Below, one piece after another: positions 31,506 through 54,238 of a stretch of 64,000 nucleotides of DNA. This DNA comes from Cynocephalus volans (lineage: Eukaryota > Chordata > Mammalia > Dermoptera > Cynocephalidae): positions 51,826,907 through 51,890,906 of the forward strand of contig NC_084463.1 in assembly GCF_027409185.1 (NCBI RefSeq). The letters run 5' to 3'. The translations under genes and the position numbers were made by a program. Below the pieces are notes generated by a model. The model searched no databases. It was given only the letters and a program-made list of their open reading frames with translations, and was not told where the DNA came from. Each line of letters begins with the position of its first letter. Positions within the stretch are counted from its first letter, which is position 1.

Positions 31506-31557
31506 TTATTTGGGGGCATGGGGTCAGATTGGCTGCCTGGTATTTGAAACTGAACTT
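31506..31557 (-). mobile_element. Left half of a SINE split by the composite element
   Basis: On the minus strand this is the tail side of a tRNA-derived SINE (caaataccaggcagccaatc). Its head side resumes at 33758-33815. The target-site duplication gaactgaactt (approx. 31546-31557 and 33747-33757) brackets the insertion. Confidence 0.65.
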
Positions 31558-33746
31558 TAAAAAAATTTCTATCTCTTGTGATATTTCAACGAATAGGTTC
31601 TTTTTAAAATTATTATTGAATCAAAATTGATTATACATATTTTTGGGGCTGAACATTGAGATATGTTGATCAAGTTAATATTGCTCACGTATATATTGTT
31701 AGAAATCATAATTATAATTTATGCCCCTTGTCCATCTCTTGCCATTCCCCGTCTTTCTCCCCCTCCCCCTTCTAATTACCGTAGATGTCCTGCTTCTGAA
31801 AGTGTAATGGTTACTCTGTTGATTTGTTGCCTAGATGATCTGTCCAATGGTGAGAGGTTTGATCAGGTCCCCCAATATTATCATAGAGCAGATATTTCTG
31901 TCAGTCTGAAATGGGATTTGTGGGGATAGACATTCTCTTTTCTTTATCTCTGATGGTGACTCCCTTTGTGTCAGTGCAGTCCAGTGGCTGGCGGATGATC
32001 TTCATGGTGGTTGCAGCATCTAGCCACTATCATGGCAGCCATGGTTATTGTGGTGGCTGTGGTGGGCCACACACATGGAGCTGTTTTTGGCATGCTCCTC
32101 TGTGATGGCAGTGTGCCTTGTTGTGGAGAGTGTCCGGGCCTCAGCTCCATGCCTCAGGTCTGCAGGCAGGCCCTGAGGCACTGGCACTGTGCCTGGTTGT
32201 GGGAAGGGATCTGGTCCCCTTCTCCATGCCTAGAGTCCCTGGGATGGGCCCTAAGGTGCTGGTGGTGTACTTGGTTGTGAGCAGGTCATTCAGTCCCTGG
32301 ATCCGTGCCCCAGGCCCCCAGGTGGGGGTTACAGGGGCTGGCAGTGTGCCTGGTTGTGGGAGTTGGGTCCAGCCCCCTTCTCCATGCCTTGGGTCCCTGG
32401 ACAGGCTCTGAGGTGCTGGTGCAGTTTGCCTGGTTATGGAAATTGGGTCCAGTCACCTCTCCATGCCTCAGGTCCTCAAGCAGGCCCCAAGGTGCTGGTG
32501 CAGTACTTGTTTGTGGGAGGGATGTCCAGTCTCCTTCTCCATGCCTTGGGTCCCTGGGCAGTCCTTGAGACACTGGCATGTTGTGCCTGGTTGTGGGAAG
32601 GAGGTTTGGTCTATGGCTCCATGCCTTGTGTCCCCTAGTGGGTCCTGAGGCACTGGCATGGTGTGCCTGAGTGTGGGAGGGAAGTCTGGTCCACTTCTCC
32701 ATGACTCAGGCCCCCAGACAGGTCCCAAGGCATTGGCGTGGTATGCCTGGTTGTGGGAGGGTTGTTCAGTCCCCTTCTCCATGCTTTAGGTCACCAGACA
32801 GGCCCCAAGATGCATGTGGTGTGAGTAGTTGTGGGCAGGGTCCAGTCCTCAGCTCCACGCCTCCTGTGACCTGGCATGCTCCAAGGCACTGGTGGTGTTT
32901 TTGATCTTGAACTAAGTTTTTGTCTTTTGCTTACTTCTAAAATGGGGAGACTTTCTGTGGGAACCAGTACTTGAGCTGTGTGTTTGAGTTAAATTGCTGC
33001 TTTGCTGCTCTTTTCCTAGGGAAGGCTTTTTGTGCAGCCAAGAGTTTTATCATTGACCTTATAGATCCTTCTGGCTCTTCAGAGACTCAGTGCACCTGGG
33101 TTGTGTGGAAACTCTGAGCTAGGCCTGAATTTTTTCATCAAATGCACCCCATGCAATTCTGCATTCCTGATCATTCTCCTCTGAGTGATCCTTTGCTGAT
33201 TGAGGCACAGATTGGCAGTCTTTGCTGTGTCGCAGTGTTCTTCTGGTGGGCCTGTCTCCACCACCACCCATGCTTCAAATTCTTCTCATGGGATGGGCCC
33301 TGCACTGGTCCCTTAGGATGACTCAATGGCCTCTCGATGGCTCCCCTTTTTCAGCTGTTCTGGCTCCTCACTCCTGTATGAGTGCACAGGAACTGTATTA
33401 TTGGTCTTGCTGTCTTAGGGGCCCCCAAGGGCCTCTTCTCCCCTGCTGCCTCCAAGTAACTCCATCTGAAAGGCACGGCTGTGGCTTCTGCTGGCTCCTG
33501 CTCCATATGCTCAGCAAGTTGAGCCTTAAAGCTGCCATGGCCTGAAATGCTCAGAGCAGTTTTTTCTTTCTCATTGTGGTTTCTCCCACCTTCATGGACT
33601 GTGTAGGTTTCTCCTGCTCTTCCCCTGAGCTCTAGTGGCCCCAGCTTGGCTGATGTTACATTTTTATAGTTGTAAATTGGTTGATTTGTGGGGAGATAGT
33701 GATGCTGGGGACAGCCTATTCTGCCACCTTAACTGGAACTCTCCTG
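31558..33746 (-). mobile_element. Composite VNTR retroelement, copy 1
   Basis: Read on the minus strand: an L1-like 5' end (ggagttccagttaaggtggc) at 33745, about 850 bp of unique body, a ~79-bp tandem array (about 32900-32100, ten units), a short unique piece with Gly/Ala-coding triplets, a ~90-bp piece similar to L1 ORF2 endonuclease sequence (about 31890-31800), then a purine-rich tract and an AT-rich L1-like 3' end (ending about 31600). Bases 31559-31600 are unexplained. It has no protein domain and needs enzymes in trans. It sits inside an older SINE with an 11-bp duplication. Same architecture as 40678-42633. Confidence 0.75.
32105..32905 (-). repeat. ~79-bp tandem array (about 10 units) of copy 1
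   Basis: The phrase tctccatgcc or a close variant recurs near 32144, 32222, 32300, 32380, 32458, 32537, 32618, 32696, 32776 and 32855. Units carry tgcctggttgtggga. The period lets long meaningless frames stay open on both strands. Confidence 0.9.
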
Positions 33747-33757
33747 GAACTGAACTT

Positions 33758-33815
33758 GTAACTTGGTGTTACAATTGTCCTTTCTAACCAACTTAGCCAT
33801 GTTGCTTTGCCCCCC
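33758..33815 (-). mobile_element. Right half (head) of the split SINE
   Basis: The minus strand reads atggctaagttggttagaaa, an A-box region of the tRNA-Ile-like SINE, continuing from 31506-31557. Confidence 0.65.
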
Positions 33816-34261
33816 ATGGATTTGTCACCCCACTTCCCCTGGGTGATGGAGCCACAAAGGATTACTCAAATCCCATCTCTTTCAAGCAGTGAGAGACCCT
33901 GAAGTGGTTAATCTCCCTCAGAATCCTCAAGTGAGAGTCATCCCTTCCTTGGGAAATTAACCCCAAATTGAGGTTCTCTTCCTGCATTTATTTTCCAGAC
34001 CAGGAAGTTAGAGGAAGAGAACATAGGTGGGGTTATAGTTTAACAATATAGGCTGGTAACTTTTAGTGAAACAAGTCAGATGACATTCCATTAGAAGATT
34101 AAGTGATCCATTAACAAAAGGTTGAGCTTAGCAAACATTCCTTCTTACAGCACTTTCTCAGTATCTTTGCATAACAATCAGTAAATAGTCTGTTTTTGAG
34201 CCAGCAACCTTGCTGTTACAAATCTTTTATCTTACAGCAGAGACTTTATAGCCTGAGGAAA
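33816..34261. other. No gene; unassigned DNA
   Basis: No exon or repeat family recognised. Confidence 0.4.
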
Positions 34262-34364
34262 ATTTCCAGTCCTCCGCAAGATCAGTATTTGAAACTGCAA
34301 GGCTTTGGAAAACCAGGCCCTGTGAAGTACATTTAAGAATCCTCTACAGAGCTAACCAGCCAAC
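34262..34364 (-). mobile_element. Decayed tRNA-derived SINE (CYN-like)
   Basis: The minus strand starts ggttggctggttagctctgtag. The body is strongly diverged. Confidence 0.55.
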
Positions 34365-35870
34365 CTACTCTTTTGCTTGTTTTATACACAGGTTATTTGT
34401 TTTGTTGTTGTATAGGGTGTGAAAGGTTTTTTTCTTTATGTATTCTTGGTGTTTATTTCTTATGATATAGATGATTTGCAGCTATTTTAGTTTTTGAGGT
34501 TCTAGCAAATAGTATTTCAATTATTTTTTAAGATTCTACTTGGTCATTGCTGATGTGTTGAAATGTGATTAAATTTTTATTAACCTTGTATGCTGCAATC
34601 TTGCTGTACTCCATTATTCTTTCCAGGAGTTTTTCCATTTATTTACTAGAATGTTTTACACAGATAGTCATATTACCTGCAACCAAAGACCCATTTATTG
34701 ATTTATTTTTCCCAGTCTGTAATTTTGTTTCATTTTCTTCTGTTATTGCAGTATGAAATACTTTTAGTGTTCCCTTGTTCCTGATTTTCTGGAAAAAATT
34801 TGAGTTTTTCACCATGAACAATAACGTTAACTACAGTTTCCTGTAGATAATCTTTATCAAGTTGTGAAGCTCCTCTCTATTTCTAGTTTACTGAGAGTTT
34901 TTATGATGAATGGGTGCTGTATTTTATCAAAGGCTTTTTCTGAATTTATTGATAGGACCATCTAATTTCTTTTCAGTATTTTGATGTGAAGGGTTGAATT
35001 AATTGATGTTCAAGTATTGAACAATCCTTGCTTACTTGGGATAAATGCCACTTGGTTGTGCTGCATAGTTCTTTTTAAACATTGTTCCATTAGGTTTGTG
35101 TATACTTTTTTTGAATATATTTGCATGTGAGATGATGGCTTGTTGTTTTCCATTCTTGTATTATCTTTGTCTGGTTTTGGAATTGAGGTAATGCTGTCCT
35201 TGTAAATGAGTTGTGATGTATCTCATCTTTTATTCTCTGAAGTAGATGGTAGGGAGTTGGTATAATTTCTTCCTTTTAAATGTTTGTTTGAAAGCCCAAA
35301 TAACACATCTTGCTCAGGTGCTTTGTTTTGAGGATTGTTATTTACAGTTTACTCAATTTTCATAATAGATATAATCCTATTGTAATACTGCACTTTACTA
35401 TGTGTGAGTTTTGTCTTTCAAGGAATTGGTCCATTTCATCTGGGTTATCAAATTTTTGCCCAGCTCTGTTCATGGTATTTGTATTTTTAATGTCTGCAGG
35501 CTCTAGTGATGTCCTCTCTTCCATTTCTGATATTAGTAATTTTTGTCCTGTTTCACTATCTTTTAGGCTTATCAATTTTATTGATCTTTTTGATGAATCA
35601 ACTTTTTTGTTGATAATTTTCTCTTGATTTCCTTTTTCAATTTTCTTTCTACTCTAATTTTTTCTGCTTGTTTTTAATTAATTTGCTTTATTTTCTTTTA
35701 TTTTCTGAAGATAAAACTTTAAATATTGGTTTTAGATGTTTCCTTTTCTAAATATATGCATTCGATACTGTAAAATTTTGAAAGTATTGCTATTTCTGCA
35801 TCCCACAAATTTTAGTAAGTTGCATTTTCACTTTTGTTTATTAAAAATATTTAAAAATTTTTTCTTGATA
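34365..35870 (-). mobile_element. Ancient L1 ORF2 fragment, antisense
   Basis: The minus strand follows L1 reverse-transcriptase and endonuclease order (for example aaaagcctttgataaaatac near 34920-34940). Strongly decayed. Confidence 0.7.
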
Positions 35871-38800
35871 TATTTTTTTTAAAAGCCCACACAAATACAG
35901 TTCCAATACTGACTTTCACCAGAGTACCGACATGGAGGCTACACTACTGTGGCTACCAGAAGCCAGTTTTAAAACTCCCCATTCAATGGTCAATATAAAA
36001 CACATCTAGAAAAGCAACTCCCTCTTCTCAAAGCCCACTTCAGAGTACTAGAAAAAGCAAGTGCTGTGCAAGATGACTAGAGACCAACATAGAGGTGCTA
36101 GAAATATGAAAAATAAAACTGATGACACCACCAAAGGAATATAATGATTTTCAAGTACCAGACTGTATAGTCAATTGAAGAAGTCCTTCAATTGACTGAA
36201 AAGGAATTTCAAGAATCCCTAAGAAACTCAGTAAGATACAAGAAGAATCAGATGATACAACAAAATGAGAAAAAGTATCCAGGACCTGAAGGAGGAAATG
36301 TACAAAGATACTATTGGGCTTAAAAAAGAATGTAGCAGATCTCATGGAACTGGAAGTGTTATTCAATGAAATAAGAAACAGAACTGAGAGCATTAACAGC
36401 AGGCTAGAATGAGCAGAAGAAAGAATTTTTGATGTCAAAGACAGCCTTTTGAAATAACCAAAGTAGACCAAAAAAAAAAAAGAAAGAATTTTATGAAAAA
36501 GAAGAAAGTCTAAGACAACAAGCAGGCACCCTGACATACACAAATACCTGAATCATGGGTGTTTCAAAAGGGAAGAAAAATGAAAAGGAATTGAAAACAT
36601 ATTCAATGAGATAAAAGCAGAAAACTTCCCAGGTATAGGGAGAGATAGGCATGTTCAGATCAAGGAGGCTCAAAGATCCCCAAACTCATTCAATCCAAAA
36701 ACATCCTCTCCAAGACATCATAGTCAGATTGGCAAAGGTCAAAGACAAAGAATCTTAAAAGCAACAAAAGTGTCCAGTCACCTGTTAGGGAGCCCCCATC
36801 AGAGTGACAACAGACTTTTCATCAGAAACCCTAAAGGCCAGAAGAGAATGTAATGATATATTCAAAATACTAAAAGGCAAAAATTGCCAGCAAGGAGTAC
36901 TATACCCAGGAAGTCAATTCTTTAGAAACAAGGGAGAAAGAATACATTTCCCACAAAAACAAATGCTGTGGGAACTCACCACCACACAACCAGCCCAACA
37001 AGATTTCTTCAAGGGAGTACTGCATCCAGTATCTGAACAACAAACATCTTTATGATGGATACATGAGAAAGAACAAAACCCATTAATAGAAGAAAAATGC
37101 AAACGTTAAAGAGAAAGAAACTTCTAAAATCACCTCAGAAAAGCAACAAACATGGAAGACAAACTATGAAATGGAAGTAAAGGAAAAAATGTATTCAAAG
37201 CATCCAAGCAAAAATCAATAAAATGTCAGGAGTAAGTCAACATAGTTTAATAATAACTCTTAATGTACATGGATTAAATACCCCACTCAGAAGACATGGA
37301 GTGATTGGATTAAAAGGATAGAGCAAACTATATGCTGTCTCACCTCCCCTGTAAAGGCACACACATACTAAGAGTAAACAGAGGGAAAAAGAAATGTCAT
37401 ATGAGTGGAAACCAAAAACAAGGAAGAGTAGCTATTCTTATGTTGGATAAACTAGATTTTAAACCAGAAACCATAAAAAGAGATATAGAAGGTTACTATA
37501 TAACGAAAAAGTATATATTGAGAAAGAAGACCTAACAATACTGAATATATATGCACCCAACTTTAGAGTTAACAAATATATCAAGCAAACACTATTAGAC
37601 TTAAAGAGAGAGATTCTAATAGCATAATAGTTGGGGAACTGAACACCCCTCTCTGAACATTGGACAGATCATCTAGGTGAAAAACCAACAGAAACACAAG
37701 ATTTAAACTGCACTTTAGAGGAATTGGACTTGGCAGATATCTAAAAAGATTTCATCCAGCAACCACAGAATATATATATTTTCTCATCAGTATATGGAAT
37801 ATTCTCCAGGATAGACCATATGTTAGGTCACAAGTCAAGTCCCAAAACATATGAAGTTATTTCATATATATTTTCAGATGACAATGGATTAAAAATAGAA
37901 ATCAATAACAAACAAAACTCTGAAAATCTTACAAACACATGGAAATTAAACAACATTTTCCTGTATGACCTATGGGTCCAAGAAGAAGTTGAACAAGAAA
38001 TCAAAAAATTTCTTGAAACTAATGAAAATAAAGACATCACACCAAAACATAGGCGATACTGCAAAATCAATAATAAGAAGGAAATTTACCGTAATAAATA
38101 CTTAAATGGGAAGAGTAGAAGGACTGAAAATAAACAGCAAAATACCTCAAAAAACCATAGAACGATCAATTCCAAAACTAATAGATGGCAAGAAATAAGA
38201 TCAGTGCAGGACTAAATGAAATAGAAACCCCCCAAAATGATACAAATGATCAGTGAAACAAAAATTTGTTTTTTTGAGAAGATAATCAAAATAGACACAA
38301 TTTTATGTAGGCTAATTAAAGAAAGAAGAGATAAGACACAAATAACAAACATCAGAAATGAAAAAGAGGACATCACTACCTATACCACAGAAACCCAAAA
38401 ATCATTGGTGACTGTTATAAACAACTATACACCAATAAATTTGAAAACCTGGAGGAAATGGGCAAATTTCTGAACACACAAAAACTACCAAGGCTGAATG
38501 AAGAAGATATAGAAAACCTGAACAAAACGATAACAAGCAACAAGATTGAAGCAGTAATCTGCAATCTCCTAACAAAGAAAAGCCAAGGGCCAGATGGCTT
38601 TACTGATGGATTGTAACAAACCTTTAAGGAGTAATTAATATAAATTCTTTTGAAACACTTCCAAAAAATTGAAACAGAGGTTATTCTCTGAAACTCTATG
38701 AGGGAGACAGCATTCCGATCCAAAAGCAGACAAAGATGCCACACGCACACAAAAAATGAACTATACGCCACTATATTTGATGAATATAGACACAAAAATC

Positions 38801-40677
38801 CTCGATAAAATATTAGTAAATAGAATTCAGCAGAACATCCTAAAAAATAGACATTGTGATCAAGGAGGATTCATCCCAGAGACACCAGAATGGTTCAAGA
38901 TATGCAAGTCAATGAATGTGTTACCCAACATCAACAAAATCAAGGACAAAACGCATATGGTTATCGCCACAGACACTGAAGAAGCACTTGAAAAAATTCA
39001 ACATCACTTCATGGTAAAGACTGTCAGCAAATTAGGTATAGAAATTATCTCAACACAATAAAAACCATATATGACAAACTTAATGTCAGTTTTATCCTGA
39101 ATGGGGAAAAGTTGGAAGCTTTTCCCTTAAGAATGGGAAGAAAACAAGGATATCTACCCTCAACTCTTATTTAATGTGGTATAGGAAATACTAGCCACTA
39201 TAATCAGTCCAGAGAAAGAGGAAAAGTGCATCCAGAATGGAAAAGAGAAAGTCAAATAGTCTGTTTGCAGGTATCATGATCCTATGTATAGTGAAGCCTA
39301 AATAGTCTACATAAAAACCTCTTAGATTCAGTAAACAGTTTCAGTAAAGTTTCAGGATACAACATCAACATGCAAAGATCAGTAATGTTTTTGAACCCAC
39401 AGAAAAAGAAATCAAGAAAGCTGTATTCGATTTACAGTGGTCACAGTTAATGAGGAATGTGAAAGATCTCTACATTGGGATCTACAAATCAATGTTGAAA
39501 AAAATCAAGGAAGAAAAAAAGGAGGAAAGATATTCTATGCTCTTGGATTGGAAGAAATGGATTGAAAACTTAAAAATAAGGGCTGAAACTATAAAACTCC
39601 TAAAAGCAAACATAGGGGAAATACTTCAGGAAGTAGGACTTGGCAAAGACTGTTTGAATATGATCCCCACAGCATAGGCAACCAAAGAAAAAAATAAAGA
39701 AATGGTATTATATCAAATTAGAAAGCTTCTGTGTAGGCAAAAGAACAACCTACAGATTGGGAGAAAATATTTGCAAACTATGCACCTGACAAAAGATTGA
39801 TTCCCAGAGTATACAAGTAACTGGAACAATTTAACACTAAAATAACAAATAGTCTGACTTTAAAAATGTGCAAAGGAGCTGAATAAGCATTTCCCAAAGG
39901 AAGGTATATAGATGTCCAGTAGACACATGAAGATACTCAATATCACTCAGCATCTGGGAAGTGCAAATCAAAACCATACCCAGATATCATCTCACTCCAG
40001 TTAGAAAGGCTATTATCAAAAAAGCAGAGAATAACAAATGCTGATGAGAAGGTAGAGAATGAGGAACCCTCCTATACTGTTGATGAGACTGTAAATTGGT
40101 GCAGCCATTATGGAAAATGGTATGGATGTTCCTCAGGCAACTACAGGTAGAACTGCCAAATGACTCAGCAATTGCACTGTGGATTATATATTTGAAGGTA
40201 TGGAAATAATCATGTAGGAGGGACACCTGTACTCCCATGTTTATTGCAGCTCCATTTGCAGTAGGCAAGAGTTGGAACCAACCTAAATTTTCATCATTGG
40301 ATGATTTGATAAGGAAATTGTGGTATATTTATATAATGGAATATTACTCTGCCATAAAAAGAATGAAACATTTCCATTCACAGCAGCATGGAAGAACTTA
40401 GAAAAATTTATGTTTAGTAAAATAAGACAGGCACAGAAAGAGAAATATTGCATGTCTTCAAATATATGTGGGAGCTAATAAAATAAATAAATACATAAGT
40501 AAACAATAAAGCATCAAAAGAAATACACAAGAATCACAATAATGTATTGAACTTTGAGAGAAAACAGAAGTGTAGTTACCAGAGGTAGAAAACAGCAAGA
40601 TGTATGTGGGAAGGGAGTAAAGGGACCCCCAAATCGATTACTTTGTGTAATGAAGAATATAGTAATCACCCTTTTTG

Positions 40678-42633
40678 TTTATTTAAATTAAAAAATTTTT
40701 ATTGAATCAAAATTGATTATACATATTTTGGAGGCTCAACATTTGAGATATGTTGACCAAATCAATATTACTAGCATATATAGTGTTACAAATTGCAGTT
40801 ATTCTTTATGCCTCTTGTGCAGTCTATCCCCATCCGTTTTTCCCCCCTCCCCTCTCTATTCAGCCTAGATTTCTTCTCTCCCTCTGGAACAATAATGGTT
40901 ACTCTGTTGATTTGCTGCCCAAATGATCTGTCCAATGCTGAGAGGCACAATCAGGTCCCCAAATACTATCGTAGAGCAGATGTCTCTTCCGTCACTATGA
41001 AATGGGCTCTGTAGAGACAGACATCCTCCTCCTTTCTTTATCTCTGCTGGTGACTTTCCTTGTGTCAACTCTCTCCGGTGGCTGGCAGACCATCTGTGTG
41101 GTGGTTGTGGCATCTAGCCACCTTCATGGCAGCCATGGTTATTATGGTGGCTGTGGTGGGCCACCCACATGGAAGAGATGTTTTTGGCCTGCTCCATGCT
41201 GCTGGCAGTGTGCCTGGTTGGAGACTGTCTGGTCCCTTTCTGCATACCCTGGGTCCCTGAGTGGGCCCTGAGGTGCTGGCACAGGTTGCCTGGTTGTGGG
41301 AGGGGGGTCCAGTCCCCTTCTCCATGCCTCAGGTCCCAGGGAAGGCCCTGAGGCACTGGCATGGGGTGCCTGCTTGTGGAGACGTTCCATAACCTGGGTG
41401 GGCCCCAGAGTGCTCGCATAGGGTGCCTGGTTGTGGGAGGGAGGTTTGGTCCCCTTATCCATGCCTTAGGCCCCTGGGCTGGCCCTGATGCACTTCCCAG
41501 CATGCCTGATTGTTGGAGGGGGTCTGGTCTCTATGCCTCAGGTCCTCAGGCAGACCCCTAGGCACTGAGTGTGTCTGGTTGTGGGAAGGGAAGGGGGTGC
41601 AGTCCCTGGCTGCTAACCCCGGGTACCAAGGCAGAACCCTAGGCATTGTTGGCATGCCTGTATATTGGAGTGGGATCCAGTTCTTGGCTCCAATCCTTGG
41701 GTTCTTAGGTGGGGCTGTGAGGTGCTGGTGGTGTGTGGTTGTGGGTGGGGTTACTGGCCCCTTGCTCCATGCCTCATGTCCTATGGTGGACCCCAAGGCA
41801 TTCGTGGTGTGCCTGGCCCAGAACTAAGTTTTTGTCCTTTGCTTGCTTCTAACCTGGGGAAAGTTCCTGTGGGAATCAGGACTTTAGCTGTGTGATTGAG
41901 GTAAATTGCTGCTTTGCTGCTGTTTCCTAGGGAAGAATTTTTGTGCAGCTCAGGCTTTAATGGTTGACCTTACAGGTGCTTCCGGCTCTCCAGACAGTGC
42001 ACCTGGGTCGTGTAAAAACTCTGATCTGGGCCTGAGTTCATTGAACTGCACCCCGTGCAATTCTGCATTCCTGACCAGTCTCCTTTGAGTGGTCCTGTGC
42101 TCATTGGGGGGCAGATTGGCTGTCCTTGCTGTGTCCCAGTGTTCTCCCAGTGGGCCCATCTCCCCAACCACCCATGCTCCAAACACTTCCCCTGGGACGG
42201 GCCCTGCACCAGACCCTTGTGGTGACTCACCAGTGTGAGTGGCTTCCCTTTTTCAGCTGTTCTGGCTCCTCAGTCCTGTGTGGGTCCATGGGAACCCTTT
42301 TAGTGATCTTGCTGTCCTGGGGGCCACCAAAGTTCTCTTCTCCCCTTCCACCTCCAAGTAATTCCATCTAAAGGGCACAGCTGCGGCTTCTGCCAGCTCC
42401 TGCTCCATGAACTCCAACATTAAAGCAGCCATGGCCCAAAACACTGAGAGCAGTTTTTTCTTTCTCTCTTCATGGTTTCTCCAGTCTTCATGAGTTCCAT
42501 AGGTCTCTCCTTCTCTTCACCTGAGCTCCAGCAGCACCAGCTTGGCTGTTACATTTTTATAGTTGTAAATTTGTCGATTTGTGGGAGTGACACTGGTGAC
42601 CGTCTACTCTGCCATCTTGACCAGAAGTCCTCA
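40678..42633 (-). mobile_element. Composite VNTR retroelement, copy 2
   Basis: Same order as copy 1: an L1-like 5' end at about 42630 (minus strand ggacttctggtcaagatggc), a unique body (for example tttgctgctgtttcctaggg, also in copy 1), a tandem array (about 41830-41210), the shared block with 'atggcagccatggttatt' near 41127, an ORF2-like fragment (about 40990-40900), then a purine-rich tract and 3' end (about 40690). It is flanked by imperfect repeats agtaatcaccctttttg (40661) and actaattatcctgattt (42634). By eye the copies are roughly four-fifths identical. Confidence 0.75.
41210..41830 (-). repeat. ~79-bp tandem array (about 8 units) of copy 2
   Basis: Units carrying tgcctggttgtggga and ctccatgcct, as in copy 1, but fewer and more irregular. 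This difference in unit number is why I call it a variable-number array. Confidence 0.85.
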
Positions 42634-46640: not shown

Positions 46641-51195
<4,555 letters not shown>

Positions 51196-52737: not shown

Positions 52738-54238
52738 TCCTTCAGGATTTTTTTTTTTTTTTCATTGATCAGTGTGTCTTTTTATGCCAGTACCATACTG
52801 TTTTGGTTATTATAGCTTTGTAGTATAGTTTAAAGTCAGGTAGTGTTATGCCTCCAGCTTTATTTTTTTTTGCTTAGCGTTGCTTTGGCTATGTGTGGTC
52901 TTTTGTTATTCCATATAAATGTGTGGATAGTTCTTTCCATTTCTGAGAAAAATGTCATTGGAATTTTGATGGGGATTGCATTGAATTTGTATATCACTTT
53001 GGGTAGTATGGACATTTTCACAATGTTGATTCTTCCAGTCCGAGAGCATGGGATATCTTTCTGTCTTCTTGTATCCTCTCTAATTTCTCCAGCAGTTGTT
53101 TGTAGTTCTCATTATAGAGATTTTTCACATCCTTGGTTAACTCAATTCCTAAGTATTTTATTGTTTTGGTGGCTATTGTAAATGGGCAGGCTTTCTTGAT
53201 TTCTCTTTCTGCATGTTCACCATTGGAGAATAGAAATGCTACTGATTTTTGTGTGTTGATTTTGTATCCTGCTACTGTGCTGAAATCCTTTATCAACTCC
53301 AAGAGATTTTTTGTAGAGACTTTAGGCTGTTCAATATATAGGATCATGTCATCTGCAAACAGGGACAGTTTGACTTCATCTTTTCCAATCTAGATGCCCT
53401 TTATTTCCTTCTCTTCTCTGATTGCTCTGGCTAGTACTTCCAACACTATGTTGAATAGGAGTGGTGAGAGTGGTCATTCTTGTGTAGTTCCTGTTCTTAA
53501 AGGAAAAACCTTTCAGCTTTTCCCCATTCAGGATGATATTGGCAGTGGGTTTATCATATATGGCTTTAATTATGTTGAGATACTTTCCACCTATACCTAA
53601 CTCATAGAGGGTCTTTGTCATGAATAAACGTTGAATTTTATCAAATGCTTTTTCAGCATATATAGAGATGATCATATGGTCCTTGTGTTTGACTTTATTA
53701 ATATGGTGTATCACATTTATTGATTTGCATATTTTGAACCAACCTTGCATCCCTGGTATGAATCCCACTTGATCATGGTGAATAATTTTATGTGTGTGTT
53801 GCTGTATTCTGTTTGCTAGTATTTTAGTGAGGATTTTTGCATCTATATTCATCCAGGATATCGGCCTGTAGTTTTCTTTTTTGGTTATATCTTTACCTGG
53901 TTTTGATATCAGGATGTTGGCTTCATAGAATGAGTTTGGGAGATTTGTGTTTGTTTCAATCTTTTGGAATAGTTTGTAAAGAATCGGTGTCAATTCCTGT
54001 TTGAATGTTTGGTAAAATTCTGCTGTGAATCCATCTGGTCCTGGGCTTTTCTTTGTTGGGAGCCTTCTGATAACAGCTTCAATCTCCTTTATTGTTATTG
54101 GTCTGTTCAGATTTTCTACATCTTCATGGCTCAGTTTTGGGAGCTTGTGTGTGTCCAGAAATTTATCCATTTCCTCCAGATTTTCAAATTTATTGGCGTA
54201 TAGTTGTTTATAGTATTCTCGAATCCTTCAGGATTTTT
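52738..54238 (-). mobile_element. L1 insertion ending in poly(A) inside ORF2
   Basis: Direct repeats tccttcaggattttt flank it at 52738-52752 and 54224-54238. The minus strand begins mid-ORF2 (about 54223) and ends directly in poly(A) after gatcaatg (about 52763). In the full-length L1 the matching point (near 21650) is about 1.3 kb before the 3' end, so the 3' UTR is missing. A 264-codon open frame lies within it. Confidence 0.9.
53376..54170 (-). pseudogene. L1 reverse-transcriptase fragment (264 codons)
   Basis: Open frame with L1 RT text: the [12 protein letters not shown] motif, N-Y-R-P-I-S, Q-V-G-F-I-P-G and A-E-K-A-F-D-K-I-Q. It lacks endonuclease, FADD and C-terminal parts in the same frame (a frameshift follows; FADDM text is absent from this frame), so it is not an active enzyme. 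Its good preservation marks a relatively young insertion. Confidence 0.9.

Follow-up and report, generated by a model that had tools for sequence, protein, structure and literature searches.

The 64,000-nucleotide stretch of Cynocephalus volans contig NC_084463.1 analysed here (the window; the contig is called C4 below) contains two copies of a long retroelement with a central variable number tandem repeat (VNTR) array. Both lie on the minus strand, copy 1 at 33744-31558 and copy 2 at 42633 to about 40674, and the family that holds both is called family A. The parts follow in the same order in each copy: a 5' end like that of LINE-1 (L1), an 830-bp body, an array of 80-bp units, a remnant of an L1 5' untranslated region (UTR), a 74-bp fragment of the endonuclease of L1 open reading frame (ORF) 2, a purine tract, an L1-like 3'UTR and an A-rich end. 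Tandem arrays were called with Tandem Repeats Finder (TRF).

33745..33757, minus: copy 1, 5' copy of the target-site duplication, AAGTTCAGTTCCA (reading and script)
32909..33744, minus: copy 1, L1-like 5' terminus and 830-bp body (copy 1 matches the majority sequence of the family at 89%; the family's terminus matches the L1 at 26285-26208 at 79%)
32106..32908, minus: copy 1, 80-bp tandem array, about 10 units (TRF)
31884..32105, minus: copy 1, post-array segment, terminating in TGCTCTA; the 5'UTRs of autonomous L1s end in homologous sequence (comparison with L1s)
31810..31883, minus: copy 1, LINE-1 ORF2 endonuclease fragment, 74 bp (comparison with L1s, structure match)
31601..31800, minus: copy 1, purine-rich tract and L1-like 3'UTR (comparison with L1; 31809-31801 is junction sequence)
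31558..31600, minus: copy 1, 43 bp separating the 3' end from the duplication, possibly a 3' transduction or tail remnant (reading)
31545..31557, minus: copy 1, 3' copy of the target-site duplication, AAGTTCAGTTTCA (reading and script)
41821..42633, minus: copy 2, L1-like 5' terminus and body (reading, alignment with copy 1)
41201..41820, minus: copy 2, 80-bp tandem array, about 7-8 units (length and anchors)
40972..41200, minus: copy 2, post-array L1 5'UTR remnant (reading, alignment blocks)
40898..40971, minus: copy 2, LINE-1 ORF2 endonuclease fragment (reading, alignment with copy 1)
40692..40890, minus: copy 2, purine tract and L1-like 3'UTR (reading, alignment with copy 1)
40674..40691, minus: copy 2, A-rich tail (reading)

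An earlier note on this DNA had claimed one architecture for the two copies, and they were indeed colinear from end to end (69% identity over 2,165 gapped columns), with 76-92% identity in 12 ungapped blocks outside the array (44-186 nt each) and about 81% in the body. The array, described in that note as about 79 bp with about 10 and 8 units, was measured at 80 bp, with about 10 units in copy 1 (TRF) and about 7-8 in copy 2 as judged from array length and anchors, where TRF itself gave 1.9 units. The ORF2-like fragment was present at the same place in both copies as proposed, with a length of 74 bp instead of about 90 bp. Copy 1 was also flanked by the predicted target-site duplication, for which a length of 11 bp had been given; it spans 13 bp with one mismatch by reading (33757-33745 and 31557-31545) and 10 bp by script. 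In copy 2, the script found TAATT alone, and a decayed duplication of 8-9 bp is arguable.

We searched the C. volans assembly (2.81 Gb, 130 contigs) with a 26-base word spanning the junction between 5'UTR and ORF2 (fusion word; up to three mismatches allowed), using the reversed word as control. The fusion word had 7,565 matches (3,761 + 3,804) and the control had none, and because of this difference a chance origin of the fusion is excluded. The window is rich in L1 pieces, which might have favoured the idea that two L1s were deleted independently; an identical fusion at thousands of places refutes it and leaves it with practically no probability, in agreement with the earlier judgement that independent deletions are unlikely. 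With copy 1 as query, at least 62 matches were obtained on at least 11 contigs (the best 40 of 11,146 candidates were scored). Copy 1 recurred at five places on C4 including its own, spaced about 124-134 kb (C4:51592892-52113322), which constitutes a local tandem segmental duplication; the main match at the four other places was 100, 99, 93 and 92%, the last having an 82% 3' piece. Such a duplication could be thought to have produced both copies in the window. However, their bodies are only about 81% alike, their targets differ and the fusion word occurs thousands of times, so that the search with copy 1 and the junction count refute this explanation, to which we attach a negligible probability. 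Copies 1 and 2 are members of a widespread multi-copy family and not local duplicates of each other.

Twenty further loci were fetched from the copy 1 search; they were picked by full-length similarity and say nothing on the rate of truncation. The complete architecture was found in all 20, with lengths of 1.53-2.70 kb that varied mostly through the array, in which the 80-bp unit is repeated about 2 to 17 times. Six of these loci (L014, L016, L019, L021, L023 and L026) represent one insertion that was duplicated onto four contigs: their flanks agreed on both sides for the greater part of the fetched 8.6 kb (85-96%, depending on the piece), and the duplicated unit is about 8.6 kb or more. Collapsing duplicates left 15 independent insertions, or 17 including copies 1 and 2. 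Among exact fusion-word matches fetched regardless of length (4 among 100 listed), three were full length (the body of one carries an insert) and the fourth was 5'-truncated. These results support the view that family A is a non-autonomous VNTR composite retroelement built largely of L1 parts, and a composite VNTR family is what the first reading of the sequence had suggested.

The best repeated flank string scored 10 or more in 12 of the 17 insertions and in 14 of 272 mismatched flank pairings. Lower scores were found for L009 (9), L010 (5), L027 (8), copy 2 (5) and L014 (8), and the duplication of L014 is convincing solely via its duplicates L016, L023 and L026, which scored 16-17. At the 13 duplication-bearing sites the match to TTAAAA averaged 4.92 of 6 (background: 3.05; 0 of 10,000 resamples as high), these sites all lying beside A-rich tails. 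The 3' ends of family A loci were A-rich. Duplications, TT/AAAA-like sites and A-rich ends are the hallmark of L1-type target-primed reverse transcription, and duplications of variable length with an A-rich 3' tail were found here, as in other insertions of non-long terminal repeat (non-LTR) elements. Going by these sequence marks, target-site duplications and TT/AAAA-like sites identify family A insertions as L1-type.

Divergence from the majority sequence in the body had a median of 8.0%, or 5.4% outside CpG, TG and CA positions (17 independent copies); copies 1 and 2 each differed by about 10%. Trees of 19 copies were star-like, with a median tip of 0.091 (5' part) and 0.12 (3' part), and contained one supported subfamily, L010, L013 and L024, with support of 100/99 from the 3' tree and 87/94 from the 5' tree. 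Family A looks like the product of a past burst out of few sources, as estimated from the fetched copies; these were chosen by likeness to copy 1 and not by preservation, and the family may still be active.

We compared family A with autonomous L1s. A decayed L1 in the flank of L028/L029 was colinear with it (post-array segment 68%, ORF2 fragment 82%, 3'UTR 66%), with ORF sequence between these parts. The endonuclease stretch of this L1 matched the LINE-1 ORF2p endonuclease structures 2v0r and 1vyb (E about 1e-34), and the 74-bp fragment spans the last ~25 residues of the match; a stretch of 38 aa from another window L1 had no PDB or Pfam match, whereas the longer L028 piece did. Homology of family A to nine L1 5'UTR ends reached CTGCTCTA, after which the L1s proceed toward ORF1 and family A to the ORF2 fragment. 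Eight of these nine were chosen by a word across this point, which had 4,016 matches genome-wide (control: 0). Thirteen autonomous L1s were examined in all, L035-L042 selected by the CTGCTCTA-spanning word and L044-L048 by likeness to the array and post-array segment of L040. The post-array segment was present in all 13 and a TRF array in seven, with a unit of 61-69 bp. When the 80-bp unit of family A was compared with the ~67-bp L1 unit, the score was 22.0, which none of 1,000 dinucleotide shuffles reached (highest: 21.5). The first ~78 bp of family A were 79% like the 5' end of the L1 at 26285-26208 of the window, consistent with the L1-like terminus that had been claimed. Set against the 100-bp array of the L1 at 26286-25531, the family A array showed no convincing likeness (z 2.4). 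Judged by similarity, the relation to L1 may be taken as shown for the post-array segment, the ORF2 remnant and the 3'UTR, and as supported for the 5' terminus and the array.

The L1 to which the 5' terminus was compared is a separate element (26286-23500, minus strand), whose 5'UTR bears a ~100-bp tandem array; downstream stand a remnant that reads as ORF1-like and one of ORF2, and a short interspersed element (SINE) is inserted. SINEs in the window resemble those of colugos.

Internal blocks of L1 are missing from family A at fixed points, as they are in SpIREs, L1 insertions with splice-site junctions (PMC5860796). Every copy might accordingly be a separate spliced L1 transcript, with no self-propagation of the family. 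However, neither junction has a donor GT or acceptor AG in the compared L1s (the breakpoints may be off by a few bases, and these L1s do not include the direct parent), and we rejected membership in the SpIREs on this ground. SpIREs also lose promoter sequence and are termed dead ends (PMC5860796), whereas family A keeps its 5' end and numbers thousands of fusion words; in this respect the two contrast. We consider recurrent splicing very improbable.

A word placed where the body ends had 9,141 matches in the genome (control: 0), and we asked where its exact occurrences on contig C1 up to 131 Mb led. An exact family A fusion word lay within 4 kb downstream in 7 of 27. Ten of the 20 remaining loci were fetched, of which six were family A and four were another element, family B (L049, L054, L057 and L058). 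Common to the four copies are the end of the body, a linker of ~145 bp, and a pyrimidine-rich stretch followed by a 3' end with an A-rich tail. A tandem period of 102-108 bp was seen in three (L049, L057 and L058), TRF calling L049 alone (4.0 copies of 102 bp), and none was seen in L054. L1 ORF1 was not seen in the ~2 kb read of any of the fetched loci, and none of the four family B copies had an L1-type 3'UTR match. The family B junction word had 6,838 matches genome-wide (control: 0).

The word at the 5' terminus had 7,582 matches (control: 0). Among the 100 listed on C1, the family B junction lay downstream in seven, all at 803-825 bp, and the family A fusion in 11, ten of them at 1,109-1,939 bp; the eleventh distance was 3,124 bp, and its fusion match is also claimed by a nearer terminus. 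No family A or B word occurred within range upstream of these termini or on the opposite strand, and 82 of the 100 had neither exact word. A single 5' module appears to serve both families, because the terminus word precedes both junction words on C1. Family B is a second large family, probably with the 5' body of family A, and with another linker, array (three of four copies) and 3' end, its 5' part being known from word positions. A coordinate join of the terminus word with autonomous L1s gave 0 of the 100 listed termini, with little power since 29 autonomous places were in range. By eye, the 3' end of family B, AACTGCTCTGCAACA..., is similar to CTGCTCTA, the place in the L1 5'UTR at which the homology with family A ends; that transcripts were polyadenylated prematurely there would be a guess.

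The best reading of family A is an L1 with internal deletions, because autonomous L1s contain its parts in identical order, with ORF1 and ORF2 in between. Its L1 5' and 3' parts stand in L1 order with the ORFs deleted, the 830-bp body apart. We are confident, short of certainty, that its members, about 1.5-2.7 kb long, are non-autonomous non-LTR retrotransposons which L1 moves in trans. The parent L1 would have lost two blocks, ORF1 with the beginning of ORF2 and the remainder of ORF2, leaving the 74-bp endonuclease remnant between the 5'UTR end and the 3'UTR; the order of these deletions is inferred. The 5' end, body, array and 3'UTR would have been retained, and the body would be L1 5'UTR. 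A retained 5' end with promoter activity could let copies be transcribed from their own start, and L1 proteins would carry them in trans by target-primed reverse transcription, which would explain the target-site duplications, the TT/AAAA-like sites and the A-rich tails. Array length varies from copy to copy, and family B appears to join the same 5' body to another array and another 3' end.

Several points weigh against reading family A as an internally deleted L1 mobilised in trans. The evidence for mobilisation by L1 consists of sequence signs (duplications, TT/AAAA-like sites and tails), and copy 2, L009, L010 and L027 were without a convincing duplication. The TTAAAA comparison covered sites with a duplication beside A-rich tails, which favours an A-rich motif. 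None of the 16 inner branches of the 5' tree (19 copies) was strongly supported. The 3'UTR comparison involves a single decayed L1, and the likeness of the array units has a narrow margin (21.5 vs 22.0), the units having been put together by hand out of TRF results; by a cruder test z was 1.6-3.3. The 830-bp body was found in 0 of the 13 autonomous L1s and could have been captured instead of being L1 5'UTR.

The last point agrees with a true composite, in which an older repeat or a captured transcript, unrelated to the L1 5'UTR, would have supplied the body and been joined to pieces of L1 5'UTR and 3'UTR in the manner of SVA and LAVA. The presence of the body in family B, where none of the four copies gave an L1-type 3'UTR match, points the same way. 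Against it stand the L1-like first ~78 bp and the array unit, related to that of L1 if by a narrow margin; moreover, the L1s compared begin within or near their own arrays and may simply be 5'-truncated. We regard a true composite as a possible, rather unlikely origin.

Family A works like SVA and LAVA yet falls outside that group. SVA, LAVA, PVA and FVA have a common 5' region and array with differing 3' ends and are termed hominoid-specific (PMC4432496), as VNTR composites are termed specific to hominoid primates (PMC7353768); human SVA has about 2,700 copies and a size of about 2 kb (PMC4859970). Family A resembles them in being non-autonomous, about 2 kb long and flanked by target-site duplications, with a central GC-rich array of variable copy number (PMC4432496, PMC4859970), and families A and B likewise have one 5' region and different 3' ends. 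Unlike them, family A has by reading neither a CT hexamer nor an Alu-like region at its L1-like 5' end, and membership in SVA was rejected on these features. The colugo units measure 80 bp and ~102-108 bp, the hominoid units 30-50 bp; the recognisable parts of family A derive from L1; and the arrays differ between A and B, whereas the hominoid families have one array in common. The variable array and L1-like ends bear out the earlier suggestion of an organisation that recalls SVA/LAVA, assembled from L1 parts.

HAL1 is likewise a non-autonomous mammalian L1 derivative. It encodes ORF1p (PMC5753468), whereas in family A the 5'UTR adjoins the ORF2 remnant directly, and membership in HAL1 was therefore rejected. 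The longest forward ATG frames of family A were 64-248 aa across the 20 copies, the frames being judged by length and not against ORF1p. Autonomous L1s share the order of post-array segment, ORF2 fragment and 3'UTR with family A and differ in the intervening ORFs, the shorter array unit and the missing body.

No such elements from colugo or from outside primates were reported in the literature searched (titles and abstract starts, among the matches listed; subscription journals, Repbase and Dfam lay outside). Colugo LINE1 markers were used in PMC9141288, the available text of which has nothing on VNTR elements of this kind. Families A and B are a real, large pair of VNTR retrotransposons that is undescribed in the literature so covered. 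It seems somewhat probable that a non-ape mammal independently evolved a modular VNTR composite system, with one L1-like 5' module, two arrays and two 3' ends, each spread in thousands of copies by L1 in trans and outnumbering human SVA. An independent and more numerous case would let the features of success be tested, namely a retained 5' module and an array, as opposed to Alu-like or retroviral parts. The array of SVA is said to be a main target of the repressor ZNF91 (PMC4432496); if the arrays of families A and B draw zinc-finger repressors in the same way, they would be a natural replicate of this arms race.

Two further open frames were seen in the window. The first (53376-54170, minus strand; 264 aa) matches reverse transcriptase (PF00078, 2.4e-16) and is an L1 ORF2 remnant. 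The second, at 47780-50416, is an 878-aa frame with many C2H2 zinc fingers and 18 zf-H2C2_2 stretches, either a gene or a pseudogene; it lies in the same window as the local tandem segmental duplication of copy 1.

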